This document shows, piece by piece, positions 8,162 to 45,557 of a stretch of 46,243 bases of DNA; the stretch's first letter is position 1; every line of letters begins with the position of its first letter. The position numbers and the translations under genes were made by a program. Source of the stretch: a virus. The stretch spans positions 1 through 46,243 of the IMG/VR virus record IMGVR_UViG_3300045999_012529; one strand, written 5' to 3'. The notes below the pieces were generated by a model. It was not told the DNA's origin, did no database searches, and saw only the letters and a program-made list of their open reading frames with translations.

Positions 8162-9745
8162 ATGGAAAAGCAGACGTTTGTCTATCCCAGCTCGGACCTT
8201 GACCGCGGCCGCAACATGCTGGCGCTGTTAGGGAGCTTCTGGTCGCGCACCTACAGCCGGTCGGACCAGGTCAACTCGTACGCCGAGGGGACCGCCCTGC
8301 TGGCGGCGCAGAATCACCGGAACCTGCTCGAGGTTGTAGCGGCGATGAGCCGCCTCGACGTGCCGCTCTACCACGCCGAGATGTGGACGCCCGTCGTGCT
8401 GCGCCGGAGTCAGCGCAACGGCGTGCTCACGAACATCGCCCGTTTTGACCGGACGACCGAGACTTTCGACGGCAGGCTCGTTTTCGACACAGCCGCCGGG
8501 CAGCCGTTCTTCGCGTTCCCCAAGCCAGAAAAGCTGGTCGCGTCGGCGCAGATCCTGGACCGCCTGACGCAGCCGACGCTCGCCCTCTCTGAGAACGTCG
8601 ACTACACGGTCGACCAGGAGCGCGGCGCCATCATCTTTGTCGAAGATCCTTTCGATAAGCCGAACCTTATCAAGAAAGGCATTTACGACAACGGCGCGCT
8701 AGTTGACGAGGAGATCACGCTCTGGGCTTTCATGGGGCAGTTCGACTACCAGTATGTCTACAGCCAGTTCGCCTATGCCTTGGGCATCAAGCTTCAGACC
8801 AGCCAGGGCTACAAAGATTTCATGAACGCCGTGTTCAGCGGCCTGGTTAACGGCGGCGCCACGGCAGGCGACCTCGACCTGGCGTTTGCGGCGATCACGG
8901 GCGTGCCGGTTTCTCTCGAGCCGTTAGAGGTTGTCGAAGTTCTTCAGCGAGACGCCCACGGCACGCTGATCATTACAGACAAGCACGTCTATCGCTTTCC
9001 TGAAGACGCCACGCCGATTGTTGCGGTAGGCGACCAGATCCGCGCCGGGACGCAGCTTGTCGACTCGGTTGAGATCGTGGAGCTGACGACCGGCGCCGTT
9101 CCCGAAACGATCAGCGCGTTGGCCCTGGACGAGGGGTTCCTTTCGGCCTGCTTCTACGGCGACCTGGTTTTCGAGAACAAGGACGTGCCGCTCGTCGTCA
9201 ACACGGCGCACCCGTCGGGCTACACCTATTTGCGTTTTGCCCTGGGCGGCTTCCCAGCCGACGTAGAGCGGTTCTTCGACGAGCTGCACATGCGGGGCGT
9301 TGCCGAGGCGGTCCAAATTCCCGATCCGTGCGAGCGGCGCCGTCAACGGCGGGGCACGCTGGCGCATGTTATTGACCGGCGCACAAACCCTGACGGCGAG
9401 CCGACGGTCGATAATCTCCCGACAACCATCAATCCGCTGGCGTTTATCGCGGAAAACATCCTGCGAAACAACGTGTTCCTCGTGCGCATTAAGAGCGCTA
9501 CATTGGGGCAAAATCGGCTAGGTCTGTACAATATGAGGCACCTGCGCCAACTCCTGCCGCCCCAGGCTGCCATGATCGTTATTTACGAGATTGGCGGCAT
9601 CCGGGACGTGCTGGACGGCGAGGAAAACGTGACCGACGCCGCAACCTCGTTTACCGGGATGGAGCCGCAGTTTGACAGCGTGCCCGAAGAGCTGGTCCAG
9701 GACCGCGGGGCGACGCTGAGAGTCATTTCTGGGACGTGCCAATAA
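8162..9745 (+). CDS. large baseplate/tail protein, 527 aa
   Basis: A 527-residue protein seven bases after the gpJ-like gene, with AGGTGA just before the start. The early part (RGRNMLALLGSFWSRTYS) is helical; beta-rich regions follow (YTVDQERGAIIFVEDPFDKP), and the end is a second alpha/beta portion. It occupies the position of a gpI-like or wedge gp7/gp8-like protein, downstream of gpJ, but is longer than gpI. No specific family is recognisable, so baseplate or tail-fibre attachment is inferred from position only. Confidence 0.85.
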   Translation: MEKQTFVYPSSDLDRGRNMLALLGSFWSRTYSRSDQVNSYAEGTALLAAQNHRNLLEVVAAMSRLDVPLYHAEMWTPVVLRRSQRNGVLTNIARFDRTTETFDGRLVFDTAAGQPFFAFPKPEKLVASAQILDRLTQPTLALSENVDYTVDQERGAIIFVEDPFDKPNLIKKGIYDNGALVDEEITLWAFMGQFDYQYVYSQFAYALGIKLQTSQGYKDFMNAVFSGLVNGGATAGDLDLAFAAITGVPVSLEPLEVVEVLQRDAHGTLIITDKHVYRFPEDATPIVAVGDQIRAGTQLVDSVEIVELTTGAVPETISALALDEGFLSACFYGDLVFENKDVPLVVNTAHPSGYTYLRFALGGFPADVERFFDELHMRGVAEAVQIPDPCERRRQRRGTLAHVIDRRTNPDGEPTVDNLPTTINPLAFIAENILRNNVFLVRIKSATLGQNRLGLYNMRHLRQLLPPQAAMIVIYEIGGIRDVLDGEENVTDAATSFTGMEPQFDSVPEELVQDRGATLRVISGTCQ

Positions 9746-10389: not shown

Positions 10390-10429
10390 TCACACGGATG
10401 TGTGAAAGCCTTGGAGGACACGGATGTCC
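10390..10429 (+). promoter_or_regulatory. candidate CsrA binding sites over the fibre-gene start
   Basis: Two hairpins with GGA in the loop lie in tandem. Hairpin 1 (10390-10405) is TCACAC-GGAT-GTGTGA, six perfect base pairs. Hairpin 2 (10416-10429) is GGACA-CGGA-TGTCC, five perfect pairs, and the ATG of the fibre gene (10424-10426) lies in its loop and 3' arm. Both contain ACACGGATGT, differing in one base from the core of the CsrA consensus ACARGGAUGU. The Shine-Dalgarno GGAGG is at 10413-10417 and partly in hairpin 2. A csrA gene occurs at 27634. CsrA binding would be expected to block translation; this is inference. Confidence 0.65.
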
Positions 10430-18195: not shown

Positions 18196-20895
18196 ATGAC
18201 TGCGCCACTTTTCGATCCGAACAAGTGCAACGTCGACTCGATTCCGAGTCTTGACTTTGACTTTGTTTCGGAGTGCTCGATCAAAGAACCGCCGCCGCCG
18301 ATCTTCGATTGTCAGCCGCCACTCGTTCCCCGAGAGCCCCCTCCGCCGCCGTGCCCACAGTTCGAGACGCGCGTTGTTGTGAACGTGCAGCAGCAAAACA
18401 ATTGTTCAATTCAATCTCAATCTAGCGAACCCAGCGTAGCAACAGTCACGCAAGTCGATGCTGATCCGTGCCGTTTTTTCATCGACTTGGACATCAATGT
18501 TCCGATCCCGCCCGTGCCGTGTCCCGACATTACGGGCGGCTCAATCAAAATTACCACCGGCTACGAGGACTGCGTTGACGGCCCGACCGGCGCGATTACG
18601 GTCACCAAACTCGAAACCTCTTGCGGCGAAAACGGAAGCAACGAACAGGCAAACTGTCGTTTCGCCATCGACCTTGATCTGACCATTCCGATTCCCCGCC
18701 CACCGTGCCCGGTCATCGAAGGCGGCGAGGTCACGATCACGACTGGTTATGAAGATTGCGTTGGCGAGCCAACTGGCGCAATCACTGTTACTCCAGTTGA
18801 GAATCCGCCGGATTGCGCGAGTGATAATGCTACTCAGTGTGAATTTAAGATTGACCTAGACCTGACCATTCCAGTCCCGCGACCGCCGTGCCCCGTCATT
18901 GCAAGCGGTCCGGTAACAATAACCACCGGTTACGAAGAGTGCGTCGGTAGTCCGACCGGCGAAATAACAATCACAAAGGTCGATCCGCCGCCAGACTGTG
19001 ACGGCGGCGAGCCTGCGCCCTGCGAGTTTGAGATCGCGCTAGATATTGTTGTTCCGACGCCGAAACCGGTCTGTCCAACCATCACGGCAACAGGCGCTAT
19101 TTCAATTGTTCAGGGCGCCCCGACCATCAGTGTTGGTGTCAACGACAACAGCACAGAAGGCGACTGCAGCAACCCGCCCAATTGCGAATTTGATATCAAC
19201 ATTGATATCGGGGTGCCGGTACCGTGCCCCGAAATCTCTGGTGACATATCGGTTTATGGTGCGCCGCAGCCAACCGGGGCGATGACTATTACTCCGACCA
19301 GCGGTCCTAGCGGCGAGTGCATCTTCGATATCCAGATCGATATTGGTGTACCAACAGCGCTATGCCCTGAAATCTCTGGTGACATATCGGTTTATGGTGC
19401 GCCGCAGCCAACCGGCGCACTGACGATCACACCAACAACCGGACCTAGCGGCGAGTGCATCTTTGATATTCAGATTGATATCGGGGTGCCGGTTCCAACC
19501 TGTCCAGAAATTTCCGGTGACATATCGGTTTATGGTGCGCCGCAGCCAACCGGTGCGCTAACCATTACGCCGACGACTGGGCCTAGCGGCGAGTGCATCT
19601 TCGACATCCAAATTGATATCGGGGTGCCGACAGCGCTATGCCCCGAAATCTCTGGTGATATCTCGGTCTATGGCGCACCACAGCCAACCGGCGCACTGAC
19701 GATCACACCAACAACCGGACCGAGCGGCGAGTGCATTTTTGATATTCAGATCGATATCGGGGTGCCTACGGCTCTGTGCCCCGAAATCTCTGGTGATATC
19801 TCGGTCTATGGCGCACCACAGCCAACCGGTGCGCTAACCATTACGCCGACGACTGGACCGAGCGGCGAGTGCATTTTTGATATTCAGATCGATATCGGGG
19901 TGCCGACAGCAATTTGTCCAGAGATTTCTGGCGATATTCAGGTTTATTACGCGCCGGGCCCTACCGGCGCACTGACGATCACGCCGACAACTGGACCGAG
20001 CGGCGAGTGCATTTTTGATATTCAGATTGAAGTGGGAGTACCATCAGGACCGACTGGCCCGTCAGGTCCAACTGGTCCGTCAGGTCCGACTGGACCAACA
20101 GGGCCCACTGGTCCGACTGGACCAACAGGGCCCACTGGTCCGACTGGACCAACAGGACCGACTGGACCAACAGGACCGACTGGTCCAACTGGCCCAACAG
20201 GCCCCACTGGCCCGACAGGCCCAACCGGACCTACTGGACCAACAGGACCTACCGGCCCGAGCGGACCTACAGGGCCCACTGGTCCAACTGGACCAACAGG
20301 ACCGACTGGGCCGACGGGTCCTACTGGCCCGACAGGCCCAACCGGACCAACCGGACCTACAGGACCAAGCGGACCTACAGGACCAACAGGCCCTACTGGC
20401 CCGACAGGCCCAACCGGACCTACAGGGCCAACCGGACCTACAGGGCCCACTGGTCCTACTGGACCAAGCGGACCTACAGGGCCGAGCGGACCTACCGGCC
20501 CTAGCGGACCGTATGGACCTAGCGGCCCCGTCGGACCGACCGGCCCCACTGGACCATATGGACCTACAGGCCCCACTGGACCATATGGACCTACAGGCCC
20601 TAGCGGACCGTATGGACCTAGCGGCCCCAGCGGACCAGCGGGCCCCACTGGACCTGCAGGACCCACTGGACCATATGGACCGTCTGGACCAGCAGGCCCT
20701 AGCGGACCGTATGGACCTAGCGGCCCCAGCGGCCCAGCGGGACCCACTGGCCCTGCAGGCCCCACTGGACCGGAAGGCCCATCTGGACCGCCGGGCCCAC
20801 CACCGCCTACAACAACAGCAACCGTAGTCACCAGCGTGTCGTGCGTTAATGGCGCTATTGAAGTTACATACGCAACAATTACAGTGCTTGCTTAA
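18196..20895 (+). CDS. repeat-rich collagen-like fibre protein, 899 aa
   Basis: I chose the ATG at 18196, which follows the previous stop TAA by one base, over an in-frame ATG at 18175. The N-terminal 45 residues are Pro-rich and Cys-containing. Residues 50-340 hold about five diverged beta units, each with C-F-I-D-L-D and C-P-V-I blocks. Residues 346-615 hold six near-identical 46-residue units. Residues 618-869 are 84 uninterrupted Gly-X-Y triplets, mostly GPT with [15 protein letters not shown] and GPP. A short tail ([20 protein letters not shown]) ends it. Collagen triplets suggest a trimeric fibre. The neighbouring glycosyltransferase may modify it (inference). Confidence 0.9.
19231..20040 (+). 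repeat. 138-base tandem repeats, six units
   Basis: Units start at 19231, 19369, 19507, 19645, 19783 and 19921, each exactly 138 bases (46 codons). Identity between units is high but codons differ. Each encodes [12 protein letters not shown], a [10 protein letters not shown] part, GECIFDIQI and a DIGVP turn. The last unit diverges (Ile-Gln-Val-Tyr-Tyr) and runs into the collagen region. Confidence 0.9.
20047..20802 (+). repeat. collagen triplet region, 84 Gly-X-Y units
   Basis: A nine-base low-complexity repeat, GGN-CCN-ACN in most units, is read as Gly-Pro-Thr. Synonymous third bases vary between units, which would reduce slippage. The final 40 percent has more GPS, GPA and GPY. Apparent reading frames on both other frames and on the minus strand are by-products of the repeat. 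Confidence 0.9.
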
Positions 20896-21300: not shown

Positions 21301-21758
21301 TTACTTGCACCATCTCTAACCTGTTGGCTCGCTGCAAAGAACGTGGCTACACGCTTGACGAGGTTCGGCCGTGCATAGTTAGCGAGGATGGCGACATAAT
21401 CACGGTCGATGAAACGCACACGGCATACCCGCGGCGCAAAATCCAGGTCAAAGATAAAGGCACTGGTACAGAACTCAAAAAACTTCTTTCAAAAATCGGC
21501 ATCAAGGCATCGCCCACTTGCTCTTGTAACACGCGCGCCAAGATCATGGACGAGAACGGGATTGATTGGTGCGCGCAGAACATTGAAACAATTGTCGGCT
21601 GGTTGCAAGAGGAAGCTGAGAAACGACAGTTGCCGTTTATCGCAATCGGCGCTAAGTTGCTCGTAAAGCGCGCTATCGCCGCTGCGCGCAAAGCGGAGAA
21701 AAAAGCGCTGCATGACACAACGCCGTCTCCTTCTAATACACAAGCGCGCTCCGGGTGA
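21297..21758 (+). CDS. hypothetical protein with Cys-x-Cys motif, 153 aa
   Basis: The 153-residue protein overlaps its predecessor by four bases (ATGA). A central block, GTELKKLLSKIGI, is followed by SPTCSCNTRAKIMDENG, WCAQNIETIVGWLQEEA. This block is, to my recollection, common in proteins of unknown function near glycosyltransferases. The C-terminal end is basic and helical and overlaps the glycosyltransferase start by 47 bases. It could bind a metal through the CSC and WC cysteines. The role is unknown; I place it in the same module as the glycosyltransferase. Confidence 0.75.
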   Translation: MITCTISNLLARCKERGYTLDEVRPCIVSEDGDIITVDETHTAYPRRKIQVKDKGTGTELKKLLSKIGIKASPTCSCNTRAKIMDENGIDWCAQNIETIVGWLQEEAEKRQLPFIAIGAKLLVKRAIAAARKAEKKALHDTTPSPSNTQARSG

Positions 21759-23625
21759 CACGGTCGTCTTGACGGCGCTGATTCGCGACATCGCCCTGAC
21801 CCGGCCGGGCGAGTTCGCGATCGCCGTCGACACACACGCCGCGGCTCTCTGGGAGAACAACCCGTACATCGTCAGTGCGCGAGAGCTGCGCGGCCAGAAG
21901 GGGGTCGAGCATATCAAGCTCACCTACGGCAAAGGCCTGCGCGACCAGAACCACGAGACGGTTCACTTCCTGAACTACTTCCATCGCGACTTCGAGGTTC
22001 AGGCCAGGGTCCGCATTCCGCTGACGCTGCCCTATCCCGATCTCCACCTATCTGAGGCGGAGAAAGCCAGCCCGCTCGTTCAGGGGCGGTACTGGGTTTT
22101 TCTATCAGGCGGCAAGAGCGACTTCACGGCCAAGGTCTGGGACCAGTCGGCCTGGCAGTCGACAATCAACCAGCTCGGCGCGCTGGGCATCTCCTGCGTG
22201 CAGCTCGGCGACGCGGCGCGCGGGCACTGGCACCCCGAGATTAAGGGCGCCTTGAACCTGGTCGGGCGCACCGGGCTGCGCGACTGGCTGCGGCTGATCT
22301 ACCACGCCGACGGGGTTATCTGCGGGGTCACCGGTGCTATGCACATCGCGGCCGCGTTACAGCGCCCCTGCGTCGTCTTGGCGGGCGGCAGGGAGGCCTG
22401 GTGGTGGGAGGCCTATGTCAGGGAGAACGCCGGTCTAGGCGGCTTGCAGACGGCCCAGAAGCTGGTTGCGCCCCACCGGTTCCTACACACGATCGGGCTC
22501 CTGGACTGCTGCCAGACCCACGGCTGCTGGAAGAACAAGGTGCTGCCGCTAAACGGCGACCAATCTATCTGTAAATACCCCATTGTGAAACCCGGCCAGG
22601 CTGTGCCGAAATGCCTGGATATGATCACCCCGGAACACGTCGTAGAGGCCGTTATGAGCTATTACGAGGACCGCACGCTGCCGCCCATCAAATCCTTGGA
22701 GGACGTCGTACGTTACCGACAGGCGCCGTCGGAGCAGCCGGTTTCACAGGGTCCGGCTGTCGCGCCCGCTCTAGTCGAGACGGCGCAGTTTGAGCGCACA
22801 GTGGCGGCGGCGCCTAACACGGCCGTACCCACCGCCGCCACCGACAAAGATATCTATGCAGACCCGGTCATTGGTGGAAAGTTCACTGTCTGCGTTTTGT
22901 TCTATGGCGCGAAGCAGTACCACCAGATGCACATGCGCTGCCTGAACTCAATTATCTCAACCTGCCCGCCCAACCGAATTGACCTGCGCGTGGGATCCAA
23001 CGAACTGTGCCCCGAGACAACAGCCGTGCTGGACCGGCTGGTCGACCACAAAATCATCACAAAGCATTATCGGCACACAGAGAACGCCCTTAAGTATCCG
23101 GTAATGCGCGAGATGTTTCATGACCCCGACTGCCCGATCACCACAAACTATCTGCTCTGGTTTGACGACGACTCGATCGCTGACCGCAATCAGCAGTGGC
23201 TCACGCTCTTGGCTCAGGCGATTCTGGCCAATCCACAAGCCGGGCTGTTTGGCTCCGATATGACAATTCGGCTGGCGCCTAGTCAGCAGGCGCTCTACCG
23301 CGCGCGGCCCTGGTACAAAGGTCGCCCATTTCGGCTAAAGAACAAAACGCCCGCGCCAAATGGCGATCATACGGCTTTCGTGGCGGGTGGTTTCTTTTGC
23401 ATAAAAACAGAAGCGCTGCGCGCGGCCGATATCCCCGACGCCACGCTTACGCACAACGGCGGGGATTACACGATCGGCGAGCAGCTCTACCAGGCCGGTT
23501 ACGATATTGTCGGCTGGAACCGGCAAAAGCAGTTTATTCACACCTCGAGTGTTGCGCGCCGCGGCGCGAGCCAGCCGCACTTCGGCACGGCGGCCTGGCA
23601 GGCGACCACGGGAGGGGCCAGATGA
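21712..23625 (+). CDS. two-domain glycosyltransferase: GT9-like plus GT-A (GT2-like)
   Basis: The 637-residue protein carries an N-terminal GT9/heptosyltransferase-like half (LLLIHKRAPGDTVVLTALIRDI at residues 6-26, and the LVGRTGLRDWLRLIYHADGVI and GVTGAMHIAAAL motifs). The second half, from residue about 390, is a GT-A domain with a DDD triad at about 485 (WFDDDS) that would bind a metal and nucleotide sugar, and a GGDYTIGEQL loop later. Between them lies a flexible Ala/Pro/Glu linker. Two transferase domains in one chain suggest sequential sugar addition. Substrate is unknown; the neighbouring GPT-rich collagen gene is a candidate acceptor. Confidence 0.85.
   Translation: MTQRRLLLIHKRAPGDTVVLTALIRDIALTRPGEFAIAVDTHAAALWENNPYIVSARELRGQKGVEHIKLTYGKGLRDQNHETVHFLNYFHRDFEVQARVRIPLTLPYPDLHLSEAEKASPLVQGRYWVFLSGGKSDFTAKVWDQSAWQSTINQLGALGISCVQLGDAARGHWHPEIKGALNLVGRTGLRDWLRLIYHADGVICGVTGAMHIAAALQRPCVVLAGGREAWWWEAYVRENAGLGGLQTAQKLVAPHRFLHTIGLLDCCQTHGCWKNKVLPLNGDQSICKYPIVKPGQAVPKCLDMITPEHVVEAVMSYYEDRTLPPIKSLEDVVRYRQAPSEQPVSQGPAVAPALVETAQFERTVAAAPNTAVPTAATDKDIYADPVIGGKFTVCVLFYGAKQYHQMHMRCLNSIISTCPPNRIDLRVGSNELCPETTAVLDRLVDHKIITKHYRHTENALKYPVMREMFHDPDCPITTNYLLWFDDDSIADRNQQWLTLLAQAILANPQAGLFGSDMTIRLAPSQQALYRARPWYKGRPFRLKNKTPAPNGDHTAFVAGGFFCIKTEALRAADIPDATLTHNGGDYTIGEQLYQAGYDIVGWNRQKQFIHTSSVARRGASQPHFGTAAWQATTGGAR
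22846..22857. repeat. dispersed palindrome AAAGATATCTAT, site 5
   Basis: Core AGATATCT at 22848-22855 inside the glycosyltransferase linker region; frame AAA GAT ATC TAT. Confidence 0.7.
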
Positions 23626-27633: not shown

Positions 27634-27840
27634 ATGCTCGTTCTGTCGCGAAAGCGGAACGAAAAAATTCTGGTCGGCCACGATATCAAGATCACCGTCG
27701 TAGAAATCATTGGAGACCGCGTGCGGTTAGGCATCGAGGCGCCCGATATGGTGCCTGTGGTGCGGGCCGAGTTAGCCGCGACCTGGCGGCAACGGAGGGA
27801 AAAAGAAAACAGCAATGGGCTGGAACGACCGGCTGATTGA
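27634..27840 (+). CDS. csrA: CsrA/RsmA-like RNA-binding regulator
   Basis: The 68-residue protein begins MLVLSRKRNEKILVGHDIKI and continues DRVRLGIEAP, which fits the CsrA family in every block. Arg6 and Arg44, which contact RNA in E. coli CsrA, are present (PVVRAEL); the residue before Arg44 is Val instead of His. CsrA binds GGA in hairpin loops, usually at ribosome binding sites, and represses translation. Two GGA motifs occur just before its own start (27621 and 27627), so autoregulation is possible. Candidate targets are the hairpins at 10390-10429 and the site at 24279. The C-terminal tail is longer and charged. Confidence 0.95.
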   Translation: MLVLSRKRNEKILVGHDIKITVVEIIGDRVRLGIEAPDMVPVVRAELAATWRQRREKENSNGLERPAD

Positions 27841-42031: not shown

Positions 42032-42754
42032 ATGAGCAATATTGAAGATAGTGCGCTTTGGGACGCCACTGAGCCGTTTGAAAACCAAGAACGGCCGGAA
42101 CCCAACGCGAAGAAAACACGGACGAAAAAGAACGGCACGGACGCCGAAATCGTTCTCCCCGAAACTGACGAAACGTTTGACCCCGTGCCACAAGAGCCGG
42201 GCGAACTGATCGACGGATCGGAAGACGATATTTCCGCGCTTGAAGAGCAGGATCCGACTGCTCCCGTTGAGGTCGCTGTTGACCTTGACGATCGTGCCCG
42301 GGCGGTTGCGGCTGTGTCCGCTGCCGCCCAAAAGAGGAGTGAAGAACCCATGTCCGAAGATAAGAAGACCAAGGCGGAGCTGATCCGCGACGAGATTGCC
42401 GCGCGCAAGGCAAAGAGCGATGACCCGATTCGTCCACGAGACGTGATCGCGGCGCTGGCTGATCGGGGTATCAAGGTCGCGGCGCCGCAGGTGTCTGTGG
42501 CACTGCGCGACTTTGGAAAGCCGTCGGCCGCCAAGGCAGCGGCCAAGGGCGAGAAGAAGAAGACGGCGGCAGAACCAAAGCGCGTCGCTGCCAAGGTCCG
42601 GTCCGCTGTTTCGGCAAAGAGCACGCCCGCGGCCAACGAGCCGTCTTACGCGGCGCTCGAAAGCGTGGCGGCGTTTGTGAAGGGCAGCGGCGGTGTCGAA
42701 ACCGCGCGGCAGCTTCTTGACGCCTACTCGCGGTTGTTCAACCAAGCAGGTTGA
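42032..42754 (+). CDS. winged-helix-like regulator (paralogue B) with long N-terminal part, 240 aa
   Basis: The first 105 residues are acidic and low complexity, then MSEDKKTKAELIRDEIAARK starts the HTH, followed by RPRDVIAALADRGIKVAAPQ. A Lys/Ala-rich linker comes next (AKAAAKGEKKKTAAEPK). The C-terminal LESVAAFVKGSGGVETARQL repeats the tag of paralogue A. An in-frame ATG at 42350 with GGAGT upstream could yield a shorter form. The Shine-Dalgarno AGAGGA precedes 42032. A DNA-binding role is inferred. Confidence 0.8.
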   Translation: MSNIEDSALWDATEPFENQERPEPNAKKTRTKKNGTDAEIVLPETDETFDPVPQEPGELIDGSEDDISALEEQDPTAPVEVAVDLDDRARAVAAVSAAAQKRSEEPMSEDKKTKAELIRDEIAARKAKSDDPIRPRDVIAALADRGIKVAAPQVSVALRDFGKPSAAKAAAKGEKKKTAAEPKRVAAKVRSAVSAKSTPAANEPSYAALESVAAFVKGSGGVETARQLLDAYSRLFNQAG

Positions 42755-42772
42755 TGTAGGTTTTCTGTCGAC

Positions 42773-42886
42773 TGCGCGCCGGGTGTCCCAGTATGTAGCG
42801 TCACGTGATTGCTACGTGCTGGGCCCCGGCGCAGCATGTCCTTGATTCGGGCACGCTGCCCACCCGCGCGACTTATCTGGTCGCGC
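42773..42886 (+). ncRNA. structured leader with three hairpins
   Basis: A long hairpin (42773-42833) has TGCG, a CG bulge, CCGGG, then CCCAGTATGTAGC (42787-42799) pairing with GCTACGTGCTGGG (42811-42823) through two G-T pairs, and a loop with CACGTG. It is followed by GGGCA-cgc-TGCCC (42849-42861) and GCGCGAC-ttatctg-GTCGCGC (42866-42886). The Shine-Dalgarno CACGGAGGTT of the gene at 42903 follows at once. The G-T pairs suggest RNA rather than DNA function. A leader or regulatory RNA is inferred. Confidence 0.5.
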
Positions 42887-42902
42887 TGCTCACGGAGGTT
42901 CT

Positions 42903-43184
42903 ATGCCCACAGCATGCCCTCTGCAATCTCGTCGGGGTTACCAGCCCATGACGATGCCAGCAGGGACCATCAAACGCATTCATGTAAACCAGCACATTAT
43001 CAAGGCGAATGTCGCCGCAGACGCGGATGACCACGCGGTCACCGTGCAGTGGAAAGGCAAAAGCTACGTAGCTCGCGACGTCCAGATCAAAGGCCCCAGC
43101 ACAGCTATGCAGCGAATGCGCAAGCCCCTAAGCTGCGGCGCCCGAATTTGGATTGAGACTCGAGCCGAAGTGGAGATTTTATGA
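42903..43184 (+). CDS. conserved phage hypothetical protein, 93 aa
   Basis: The 93-residue protein contains IKRIHVNQHIIKAN, a KSYVARDVQIKGPST strand region and KPLSCGARIWIETRAEVEI. From memory this 'HVNQH.IKAN...PLSCGARVW.ET' pattern is a common phage family of unknown function; the cysteine and terminal strands are conserved. GGAGG stands five bases before ATG 42903, behind the structured leader. An in-frame ATG at 42948 (MTMPAGTIKR) could be an alternative start. Confidence 0.8.
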   Translation: MPTACPLQSRRGYQPMTMPAGTIKRIHVNQHIIKANVAADADDHAVTVQWKGKSYVARDVQIKGPSTAMQRMRKPLSCGARIWIETRAEVEIL

Positions 43185-43492
43185 ACCGCTATCACGAGAC
43201 CCAGCGCGACGAGGACTTCGGCAGCCTGACCAACGCGCTGCAATACCTCGATCAAATTCGCGATACTTTTGGCGATGTGCTCGCCATTCCTGAAGTGGTT
43301 ACCATCCAGGACGTCATGGCCATCGCCCTGGACACCACTAAAGGACCCCAGCTCATTGGCGACGTCTGCAGCCGCGACGAGATCGTCCATATCCTCCAAG
43401 CCTTCGCCGACAATCCTTGCGGCGACCCGGCTCTAATTGCGCAGTACGCGCTCAATGACTATCGCGAAACCCAACTCACCAGTAAGGAGTGA
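43181..43492 (+). CDS. hypothetical protein, 103 aa
   Basis: The 103-residue protein overlaps the previous gene by four bases (ATGA). It is helical and acidic, with LQYLDQIRDTFGDVLAIPE and DEIVHILQAFADNPCGDPA. No family was recognised. It directly precedes the DUF1257 gene. Confidence 0.7.
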   Translation: MNRYHETQRDEDFGSLTNALQYLDQIRDTFGDVLAIPEVVTIQDVMAIALDTTKGPQLIGDVCSRDEIVHILQAFADNPCGDPALIAQYALNDYRETQLTSKE

Positions 43493-43494
43493 TC

Positions 43495-43857
43495 ATGTCG
43501 CACATCGTGCAGATCAAGACGGAAGTGAAGGACGAGATGGCGGTTCGTGCCGCCTGCCTGCGCCTGAAGTGGGAGCAGCCCACCTTCGGCAAGTTCCGCG
43601 TGTTCGGTGTCGACCGCGAGGGCCTTGGGGTGGAAATCCCCAGCTGGCATTACCCGGTCGTCGTCAACCTGTCGACCGGCGCCGTGGACTTCGACAACTA
43701 CAACGGCCACTGGGGCGAGCAGAAGCTGCTTGACCAGTTTCTCCAGGCCTACACGATTGAAAAGGCCAAGCTCGAGGCGCAGAAGATGGGCCACTCGGTG
43801 TATGAAGAGCCGATGGCCGATGGTTCGATCAAGCTCACTGTCACCGTGGAGGCCTGA
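43495..43857 (+). CDS. DUF1257 (Ycf35-like) protein, 120 aa
   Basis: ATG at 43495 follows AAGGAG. The 120-residue protein begins MSHIVQIKTEVKDEMAVRAA and has YPVVVNLSTGAVDFDNYNG, HWGEQKLLDQFLQAY and a C-terminal ADGSIKLTVTV, all marks of DUF1257. This family includes plastid and cyanobacterial Ycf35, of unknown biochemical function. The next two genes, DUF2997-like and an AAA+ ATPase, complete a trio known in several bacteria. Confidence 0.9.
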   Translation: MSHIVQIKTEVKDEMAVRAACLRLKWEQPTFGKFRVFGVDREGLGVEIPSWHYPVVVNLSTGAVDFDNYNGHWGEQKLLDQFLQAYTIEKAKLEAQKMGHSVYEEPMADGSIKLTVTVEA

Positions 43858-43862
43858 CCAAC

Positions 43863-44054
43863 ATGACCAAGATCATCGAAATCGTTGTTTCCCCCAAGGG
43901 CGAAGCCAAGCTCGAGACCAAGGGTTTCGCGGGCAGCGGATGCCAGGAAGCCACGCGGGCCCTCGAAGCTGCGCTGGGCGCCAAGACCGACGAATCCCTG
44001 ACCGGTGAGTATTACACCGAGGTCAACACCAACCAGCTCGACGTCCAGAACTAA
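43863..44054 (+). CDS. DUF2997-like small protein, 63 aa
   Basis: The 63-residue protein has IIEIVVSPKGEAKLETKGF, then GCQEATRALEAALG, and LTGEYYT. This matches DUF2997, a small family regularly found next to DUF1257 genes. Five bases separate it from its upstream neighbour and nine from the AAA+ gene. The role is unknown. A ubiquitin-like or small adaptor function has been suspected for the family by its size; this is not shown here. Confidence 0.85.
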   Translation: MTKIIEIVVSPKGEAKLETKGFAGSGCQEATRALEAALGAKTDESLTGEYYTEVNTNQLDVQN

Positions 44055-44063
44055 GGAGCACAG

Positions 44064-45557
44064 ATGAATCTTTCCCAGCAGATCAAAGAACTTGTGTGCG
44101 CGGGCTTCTCGGGCATCTGGGTCGACACTCAGGAGTCCGACGACGCCGTGGCCACCGTGAAGAAGCTCTGCGAGGAGCGGGACTGGGGGTTTGAGGTCTG
44201 GGACCTTGACCGCCAGCTCTGCGTCCACAACGCCACGCCCGCGCCCGGCCCTGTCCAGGCGCTGCGCTGGCTCGACACGCAGGACGCCCGGGCCAAGAGC
44301 ACGCAGCTTCTGCTGCTCAAGAACTTCCACAAGTATCTGCCCAACCCCGAGGTGATGCAGGTTCTCCAAAACCGCGTCATCACCGGCAAGGCGATCGGCC
44401 AGCACATCGTCGTGATGAGCCCCGTGCTCCAGCTGCAGCCGGAGATCGAGAAGCTCTTCACGATCGTTCACCACGAGCTGCCGGACCGCGTGCAGTTGAC
44501 CACCATTGCCAACGAGCTGTTCACCGGCGAAGGCAACACGTTTGAGAAGCCCAGCGACGAGGTGATCTCGAGCGTGATCGACGCCGCCAGCGGTATGACC
44601 CGCCTGGAGGCCGAGAACGCGTTTGCGCTCTCGCTGGTCCGGCACAACACCCTGAGCCCGGACGTGATCTGGAATCTCAAGGCGCAGACCCTGGAGAAGG
44701 CTGGCACCCTGGCCCTCTACCGGGGCGACGCCAGCTTCGACGGCCTGGGCGGCCTCGATAACCTGAAGCAGTTCTGCCTGCGCGCCATGAAGCGCCAGGG
44801 CGAAGCTGACCCCGAGCGCCGTCCCCGCGGCGTGCTCCTGCTCTCGCCTCCGGGCTGCGGCAAGTCGCAGTTCGCCAAGGCGCTGGGCAACGAAGTGGGC
44901 CGCCCGACCGTGGTGCTCGACTTCGGCGCGCTGATGGGCAAGTTCGTCGGCGAGTCGGAGGGCAACATCCGCCGGGCTCTCGCCCTGGTGGACGCGATGG
45001 CGCCCTGCATCCTGTTCGCCGACGAGATCGAGAAGGCGCTCTCTGGTGTGGGCTCGAGCGGCCAGACCGACTCGGGCGTCACGGCGCGCCTCTTCGGCAC
45101 GTTCCTCACGTGGCTCAACGACCACAAGTCGGACGTGTTCTTCATCGGCACCTGCAACGACGCCAGCAAGCTTCCGCCCGAGTTCACTCGTGCGGAGCGC
45201 TTCGACGGCGTGTTCTTCGTGGACCTGCCGACGGCCGACGCCCGGAACTACATCTGGGAGCTGTACCTCAACAAGTTTGGTCTGGACAAGAACCAGTCCA
45301 AGCCGGACGACTCGAACTGGACCGGCGCCGAGATCAAGAGCTGCTGCCGTCTGGCGGCCCTGCTTGGCGTCTCGCTCGTCGAGGCCGCGTTCAACGTGGT
45401 GCCAGTGGCCGTGACCAACGCCGAGTCGATCGCCAATCTGCGCTCGTGGGCCGATGGTCGGTGCCTGAGTGCCGACAACAAGGGTTACTTTAAGAAGGCC
45501 GCTGTTAAGGCCAACGAGCCGGGCACCCGCCGCCGCGTTGCGCCCAGCTCCAACTGA
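44064..45557 (+). CDS. AAA+ ATPase of the Ycf46 type, 497 aa
   Basis: The 497-residue protein has an N-terminal non-AAA domain (GIWVDTQESDDAVATVKKL), as Ycf46 proteins have, then the ATPase: Walker A S261PPGCGKS268, Walker B CILFADE with D320 and E321, sensor-1 GTCND (N365), and R376/R379 in TRAERFDG as arginine finger candidates. Length and layout match Ycf46. Such AAA+ proteins remodel protein partners. The stop overlaps the palindrome at 45557. Start is preceded by AAGGAGCA. Confidence 0.9.
   Translation: MNLSQQIKELVCAGFSGIWVDTQESDDAVATVKKLCEERDWGFEVWDLDRQLCVHNATPAPGPVQALRWLDTQDARAKSTQLLLLKNFHKYLPNPEVMQVLQNRVITGKAIGQHIVVMSPVLQLQPEIEKLFTIVHHELPDRVQLTTIANELFTGEGNTFEKPSDEVISSVIDAASGMTRLEAENAFALSLVRHNTLSPDVIWNLKAQTLEKAGTLALYRGDASFDGLGGLDNLKQFCLRAMKRQGEADPERRPRGVLLLSPPGCGKSQFAKALGNEVGRPTVVLDFGALMGKFVGESEGNIRRALALVDAMAPCILFADEIEKALSGVGSSGQTDSGVTARLFGTFLTWLNDHKSDVFFIGTCNDASKLPPEFTRAERFDGVFFVDLPTADARNYIWELYLNKFGLDKNQSKPDDSNWTGAEIKSCCRLAALLGVSLVEAAFNVVPVAVTNAESIANLRSWADGRCLSADNKGYFKKAAVKANEPGTRRRVAPSSN

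Follow-up and report, generated by a model that had tools for sequence, protein, structure and literature searches.

Phage-encoded translational repression of many genes is exemplified by T4 RegA, a small protein that covers the start regions of many phage mRNAs, acts on early genes and is unrelated to CsrA. For CsrA itself, the parts of the cited papers that were available to us describe high-affinity targets as stems capped directly by an ANGGAX hexaloop, and in the solved hcnA-RsmE complex the hcnA loop reads ACGGAU (PMC4005645). A CsrA dimer bridges two sites that are separated by 10 to 63 nt, and glgC is repressed by CsrA from one hairpin site and one Shine-Dalgarno (SD) site (PMC7652899). 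Genes for csrA/rsmA have been found in 30 of 2517 phages, with many examples in GenBank and IMG/VR (PMC7366521, PMC8450108), and phage CsrA has been proposed to serve host manipulation and to have anti-CRISPR activity (PMC8450108). Knockdown of csrA in PTXU04 leads to smaller plaques, and the role of phage CsrA in the phage life cycle is called untested in the same source (PMC11879866). The CsrA of JC1 may be in the virion, on the evidence of one peptide (PMC9144972), and loss-of-function tests of phage CsrA have been called for (PMC7366521).

We analyzed a 46,243-nt stretch of viral DNA (the window), which is IMG/VR record IMGVR_UViG_3300045999_012529 and is named G000 among the genomes compared. 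It has a csrA gene and, at the start of a gene at position 10424, two GGA-loop hairpins. From the start of one GGA to the start of the other is 26 nt, inside the range that CsrA dimers bridge, and one of the two sites lies over the SD and AUG. We think it probable that CsrA, chiefly the phage's own, represses translation of virion genes through such hairpins, in the manner of glgC. This model builds on observed features, namely the protein, the hairpins, their register, the covariation of their stems, the shared targets and the linkage to csrA.

Two hairpins and a CsrA gene in the window

Table 1. Features of the window and, in the last row, of related genomes.
Feature	Position	Strand	Details
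Upstream CsrA-type hairpin	10390..10405	+	tcacacggatgtgtga in the window letters; UCACAC-GGAU-GUGUGA; GGA 10396-10398; ACANGGANGU at 10392-10401
Shine-Dalgarno GGAGG	10413..10417	+	Read directly; overlaps 5' arm of second hairpin
Start-codon CsrA-type hairpin	10416..10429	+	ggacacggatgtcc in the window letters; GGAC-ACGGAU-GUCC; GGA 10422-10424
Target gene, 632 aa	10424..12322	+	Virion-module protein, adhesin-like (earlier "fibre"); fibre identity unproven
Phage csrA, 68 aa	27634..27840	+	PF02599
181-194-aa gene before capsid gene	G001 49244, G004 54295, G006 43165, G010 85545

The original prediction of two GGA-loop hairpins before and over the start at 10424 is confirmed by the letters, in which ACACGGATGT is present twice (10392-10401 and 10418-10427), and by RNAfold. 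In both the MFE and the centroid structures, 10390-10395 pair with 10400-10405, and 10416-10420 with 10425-10429. The z-scores of the two hairpins are -1.86 and -2.29, and 8 and 4 of 200 shuffles, respectively, fold as stably. The pattern ACANGGANGT is seen 4 times versus 0.96 expected per shuffled window (1 of 100 shuffles gave 4), and two of the four matches are the adjacent hairpin sites at this gene. The matches at 9177 and 28303, which are inside coding sequence and away from gene starts, were treated as chance.

The second hairpin holds the start codon and overlaps the SD, as had been claimed: the ATG (10424-10426) spans the loop into the 3' arm. The loop GGA is distinct from the SD, which is partly inside the stem. 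Two perfect hairpins had also been claimed, and this holds in full only for the second, which has the complete CsrA operator motif (an ANGGAX hexaloop on a stem, near RUACARGGAUGU). Read as a strict ANGGAN hexaloop, the first keeps only 3 stacked pairs, and when it forms 6 bp the loop is the tetraloop GGAU.

The gene at 10424 had been called a fibre gene. It belongs to the virion module, and part of its product resembles carbohydrate-binding modules, but PHROG matches are weak and do not prove a fibre. The 632-aa protein itself has no Pfam or PHROG match at E 0.001. Weak PHROG matches at E 0.01 were obtained with 24 orthologs, and those to tail fibre, collar and baseplate proteins each occur in single orthologs only. 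A structure model of medium confidence (pLDDT 71, pTM 0.33) aligns in part with carbohydrate-binding modules (TM 0.70 for a 130-residue CBM6 target). The top-ranked matches in the PDB comparison cover the whole model poorly, and its viral structure matches are mostly unnamed, with some tail proteins. An adhesin or fibre is plausible for this product and is not shown.

The claim that the window encodes a good CsrA with Arg6 and Arg44 kept was borne out. The product of 27634-27840 scores 76 bits with the PF02599 profile (cut-off 27) and is the sole match to it in the window. Across 13 aligned CsrAs, including that of E. coli, L4, R6 and R44 are invariant; we take these to be RNA-contact residues of CsrA. 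Eleven solved sequences, of CsrA/RsmE/RsmN type, match the phage protein (best E 4.6e-10). Judged by its sequence this is a true CsrA, for which dimerization and binding of GGA hairpins are inferred. CsrA similarity proved uninformative as to the host: identity to the 35 bacterial loci listed is 44-60%, and these loci come from MAGs of mixed groups, e.g. Krumholzibacteriota and Planctomycetota, so that no host can be assigned in this way. We also rejected autoregulation of csrA, since its own leader has no conserved CsrA hairpin across the near relatives compared. The 224-aa gene just upstream of csrA has a hairpin in G004, G005 and G006, and none in G000 and G001.

Other genes of the window include 18196-20895, whose long product matches many tail-fibre and collagen-like PHROGs, and 21712-23625, which encodes a phage protein with a Glycosyltransferase family 9 domain.

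Conservation, register and targets of the hairpins

The exact double hairpin is present in three IMG/VR records, two of which are the same phage. G001, G004, G006 and G010 all carry the 527-aa gene located two genes before 10424, together with the 10424-type gene and its hairpin. (G002 matches the start of G001 letter for letter once reverse-complemented and was left out of the counts.) The upstream GGA-loop hairpin is also found in these four genomes, with altered stem letters in G004 and G006, and is not recognizable in the more distant leaders of the gene that were inspected. The neighbouring 208-aa protein has no cultured relatives in the phage collection searched.

A search with the 10424 protein covered 49 records, i.e. 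46 of the 50 records recovered with the capsid protein (see below) plus G003, Arash and D69. The protein was found in 32, and the leaders of the 30 best were read. A GGA-loop hairpin stands at the AUG in all but one of these 30 (G044). In the leaders of two divergent records, L258 (ATGCCC) and L269 (ATGGCA), the stem of the start hairpin is rebuilt and the second codon changed, with proline or alanine replacing serine as the second residue; in L252 the loop has five bases. Beyond the best 30, G045 has no hairpin, and G048 has one with the loop TAGGAG and keeps GGA hairpins at several starts.

The original prediction concerned a single target. The 10424 site stands, but not as the only one: it belongs to a set of sites found on virion genes across the genome. 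We scanned the region between 25 nt upstream and 8 nt downstream of gene starts for hexaloop hairpins with at least 4 Watson-Crick pairs. For 719 plus-strand genes of the window, G001, G004, G006 and G010, called with a home-made gene caller, GGA was at hexaloop offsets 0, 1, 2 and 3 in 2, 2, 51 and 7 hairpins, and all 51 at offset 2, the CsrA register, read ANGGAN. When the 3' flanks were permuted 1000 times among 718 GGA sites, the mean count was 5.3 and the highest 13, versus the 51 observed, and the same register peak was obtained with an earlier, cruder gene caller. Counted on both strands, offset-2 hairpins number 13, 11, 14 and 13 in G001, G004, G006 and G010, with 0 to 3 at other offsets. 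The window alone has one, and the 10424 gene is its only confident target. The more distant G034 and G017 have 12 and 15 at offset 2; the counts at offsets 0-3 are 0, 0, 9 and 2 in G026, and 2, 3, 7 and 3 in G048. In a trinucleotide control with G001, G004, G006, G010, G034, G017 and G026, GGA was in-loop at 87 of 1220 sites, versus 4/1137 for GAG, 5/1036 for AGG, 7/1016 for GAA, 9/828 for AAG, 2/924 for GCA and 2/483 for GTA. Neither the register nor the trinucleotide counts are independent events, because the genomes are related; the register contrast is internal to each genome.

Eight ortholog families have an ANGGAN hairpin (at least 3 pairs) in every near-relative genome that holds them. 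These are the 10424 gene, in 5 of 5 near relatives, and, in 4 of 4 each, an M10 metalloprotease gene, 341-aa, 242-244-aa, 791-aa and 181-194-aa genes, the 308-aa capsid gene and the 939-944-aa tail sheath gene. Two hairpins straddle the start of the metalloprotease gene. Six further families, each from two genomes, have the hairpin in both. The protease and sheath are named by Pfam/PHROGs, and the capsid by tblastn to the annotated capsid protein of Arash (28.5% identity over 96%); a capsid structure model from four sequences was not used (pLDDT 30). Some near-group targets are lost in more distant members: in G034, G017 and G026, the hairpin persists in the leaders of the 791-aa, 181-aa, capsid and 10424-type genes, and the 341-aa and 242-244-aa genes have no start hairpin. 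This comparison leaves out the protease and sheath leaders; G034 has a hairpin before a 1069-aa gene that was taken as the sheath without check.

Might these hairpins have nothing to do with CsrA, and instead present the SD or the start codon to ribosomes within a loop, or stabilize the mRNA? Such a role would suit most targets other than the 10424 gene (capsid, sheath and similar), where the loop GGA is the SD itself. However, only one GGA register is enriched, the loop GGA at the 10424 gene is not the SD, and scanned phages without csrA show no such pattern. Arash, a distant relative in which csrA was not detected, has 1, 2, 3 and 1 hairpins at offsets 0-3, i.e. no register excess, and in its trinucleotide control GCA is high (5/95, with GGA at 3/231). 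There is likewise no register excess in the csrA-less phages CcrColossus (first 220 kb) and PB1. A role independent of CsrA is hence quite improbable in our judgement, and we retain operators for a CsrA-family protein as the preferred reading.

Nine other csrA-bearing phages (PhiXhv-12, F116, phi297, Vibrio D65, Vibrio 1.232, PTXU04, G007, G008 and G009; JC1 was not included) are flat at a threshold of at least 4 pairs, with 0 to 2 hairpins at offset 2. At 3 or more pairs, Vibrio 1.232 has 4 at offset 2, which is its permutation maximum. We therefore reject the rule that a phage csrA implies phage operators; a csrA gene does not generally indicate self-regulation.

Covariation was assessed in two leaders. 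The capsid protein search gave 51 loci from 50 records, and all 51 have an A-N-GGAG motif no more than 30 nt before the capsid ATG. Across 32 distinct leaders, the five-pair stem is paired in 94.4% of cells, versus 72.5% or 48.8% with the partner slid by one, and there are two-sided changes at four of the five pairs, in 26 cells. The values for paired cells, two-sided cells and covariation score were reached by none of 500 shuffles; two weak measures, two-sided pairs and pair types, were reached by 30 and 45. For the leader of the 181-aa gene that precedes the capsid gene, with 50 of the 51 loci usable, 96.9% of cells are paired versus at most 53.9% when slid, with 11 two-sided cells; here the same two weak measures were reached by 236 and 242 of 500 shuffles. 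Because the loop motif served to select both sets of leaders, conservation of the loop is not an independent finding, although no capsid locus failed. Judged by folding energy, three capsid leaders do no better than shuffled sequences. Arash and Vibrio D69, in neither of which csrA was detected, have plain SD capsid leaders, that of Arash without a hairpin.

The covarying stems bear on whether phage CsrA mainly manipulates the host, e.g. by repressing CRISPR-Cas, with the hairpins on phage mRNAs as a sponge or side effect. Host manipulation is the published proposal for phage RsmA/CsrA generally (PMC8450108, PMC11879866, as far as their available text goes), and it is not mutually exclusive with self-regulation. 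Nevertheless, the sites lie exactly on phage ribosome binding sites, their stems covary, and no CsrB-like array is evident in the site lists, for which there was no dedicated search. As an account of the hairpins we give host manipulation very little credence, and continue with regulation of the phage's own mRNAs.

Two observations concern the neighbourhood of these targets. The 181-194-aa leader has a second, upstream hairpin, TTCACANGGATCTGTGA, with loop GGA in G001, G004 and G010 and GGT in G006; it is another dual-site leader. Beside the operator genes, L041:2243-4120 (42243-44123 of G004) encodes a 626-aa protein that matches RNA polymerase Rpb1 domain 5. Arash particles are reported to have beta and beta' RNA polymerase subunits (PMC10585845, seen in part), and the ~200-kb phage family may therefore also package RNA polymerase.

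Co-occurrence of csrA and the hairpins

The original prediction proposed searching related phages for co-occurrence of csrA and the sites. We found csrA in 22 of the 50 capsid records and in all 12 contigs of at least 190 kb; the match in G051 is weak (19.8 bits, 32.7 with its neighbours). Among the 30 scored leaders, the GGA hairpin is present at the 10424-type gene in 21 of 21 csrA-positive records. Of the mismatches that the original prediction had named as counting against it, there is one case each way: G045, the 22nd csrA-positive record, has no hairpin at this gene, and the lineage of G025 and G026 has hairpins without detectable csrA. In 20 of the 21 records csrA lies 13.4-28.9 kb downstream of the 10424-type gene on the same strand, while in G011 the two are at opposite contig ends. 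G045 has two csrA-like genes, 50261-50434 (+) and 92645-92842 (-), one of them weak; only the weaker is downstream on the same strand, the stronger being on the other strand. Seven of nine csrA-less records (G010, G014, G015, G019, G027, G038 and G044) stop within 13.4 kb downstream of the gene, short of the usual place of csrA, which may therefore be missing merely from the contig. G048 was dismissed as a csrA-less exception, since its contig ends 0.4 kb past the 10424-type gene.

G025 and G026 (L147, L148; L273-L281, L284-L286) keep the operators, and csrA has apparently been cleanly deleted between conserved neighbours. From the last codon of the 224-aa gene, which usually precedes csrA, it is 19 nt to the start of the next homologous ORF. 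Searched with filters off, neither G026 nor the 60 kb fetched of G025 yielded a CsrA-like frame. If the G026 genome totals ~205 kb, ~37 kb of it is unseen. The csrA profile search was positive in G017 and G034 and negative in G026; the search of 14 csrA-less records included no positive-control genome. Either csrA was recently lost in this lineage, or it is in the unseen part, or a host CsrA reads the sites.

More generally, host CsrA could be the main reader, such that host physiology gates virion synthesis and phage csrA is a supplement or later addition. Hairpins that persist where csrA is absent between its usual flanking genes are what one would expect of this arrangement. In the text available from each source, one RNA motif is common to CsrA-family proteins (PMC4005645), csrA-bearing phages tend to have csrA-bearing hosts (PMC8450108), and overexpression of host CsrA alters Salmonella prophage behaviour (PMC12371270). 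On the other hand, none of the long contigs has lost csrA, the aligned CsrAs keep R6 and R44, and F116 (P. aeruginosa) and PTXU04 (E. coli) have no such site excess. We consider host CsrA unlikely as the main reader. The choice between phage and host CsrA, both of which had been allowed for, is nonetheless partly unresolved, because G025 and G026 keep hairpins without detectable csrA, and both remain partly possible.

A CsrA-type trans circuit over the 10424 start, as first envisaged, is strongly supported by the comparison of relatives, namely by the hairpins of the csrA-positive records and the rebuilt stems; binding and the effect on expression are inferred. In the mechanism we favour, a CsrA-family protein, mainly that of the phage, would use the hairpins as operators. 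A single dimer would grip both loops, that of the upstream hairpin and that of the start-codon hairpin, and would thereby cover the SD and AUG and block 30S loading, as on glgC. CsrA could be a common translational brake on virion production, because the same operator is on other virion genes (capsid, sheath and others outside the window). The brake would probably be released late, once virion mRNAs outnumber CsrA. Binding, repression rather than activation, timing and release are all inferred. On balance, we favour the broader view that a ~200-kb phage family captured CsrA and rewired it to govern virion assembly as a dedicated master switch at the level of translation. The capsid, sheath, protease and adhesin-like genes with their operators would then make up a viral Csr regulon directed at the phage itself.

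Relation to described Csr systems and phage repressors

Both phage csrA genes and CsrA operators are already known. Among the matches listed, and in the open-access PubMed Central literature as far as its text was available, no phage CsrA is described as having phage mRNAs for targets, and we have not found a phage-wide operator set on virion genes reported previously within that literature. The family described here offers named phage targets, covarying operators, csrA-less controls and an apparent natural loss of csrA; the role of phage CsrA is therefore directly testable.

A close likeness is to glgC of E. coli, where an upstream GGA hairpin is likewise combined with a second site over the ribosome binding site (PMC7652899, in the part available). 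In the phage, unlike glgC, each of the two sites is a hairpin, the AUG lies within the second, and a phage genome encodes regulator as well as target. RsmE-hcnA shares the identical ACGGAU hexaloop on a stem at the ribosome binding site (PMC4005645, likewise in part), but the phage sites are on phage mRNA and on a set of virion genes. Other phage csrA genes also place a CsrA homologue on a phage genome, but the nine scanned are without the operator set, and their role, in the portions of the literature at hand, is either untested or proposed to lie in manipulating the host or countering CRISPR, and not in action on phage mRNAs. Finally, unlike T4 with RegA, the phage family here has a borrowed bacterial regulator together with structured operators on virion genes.
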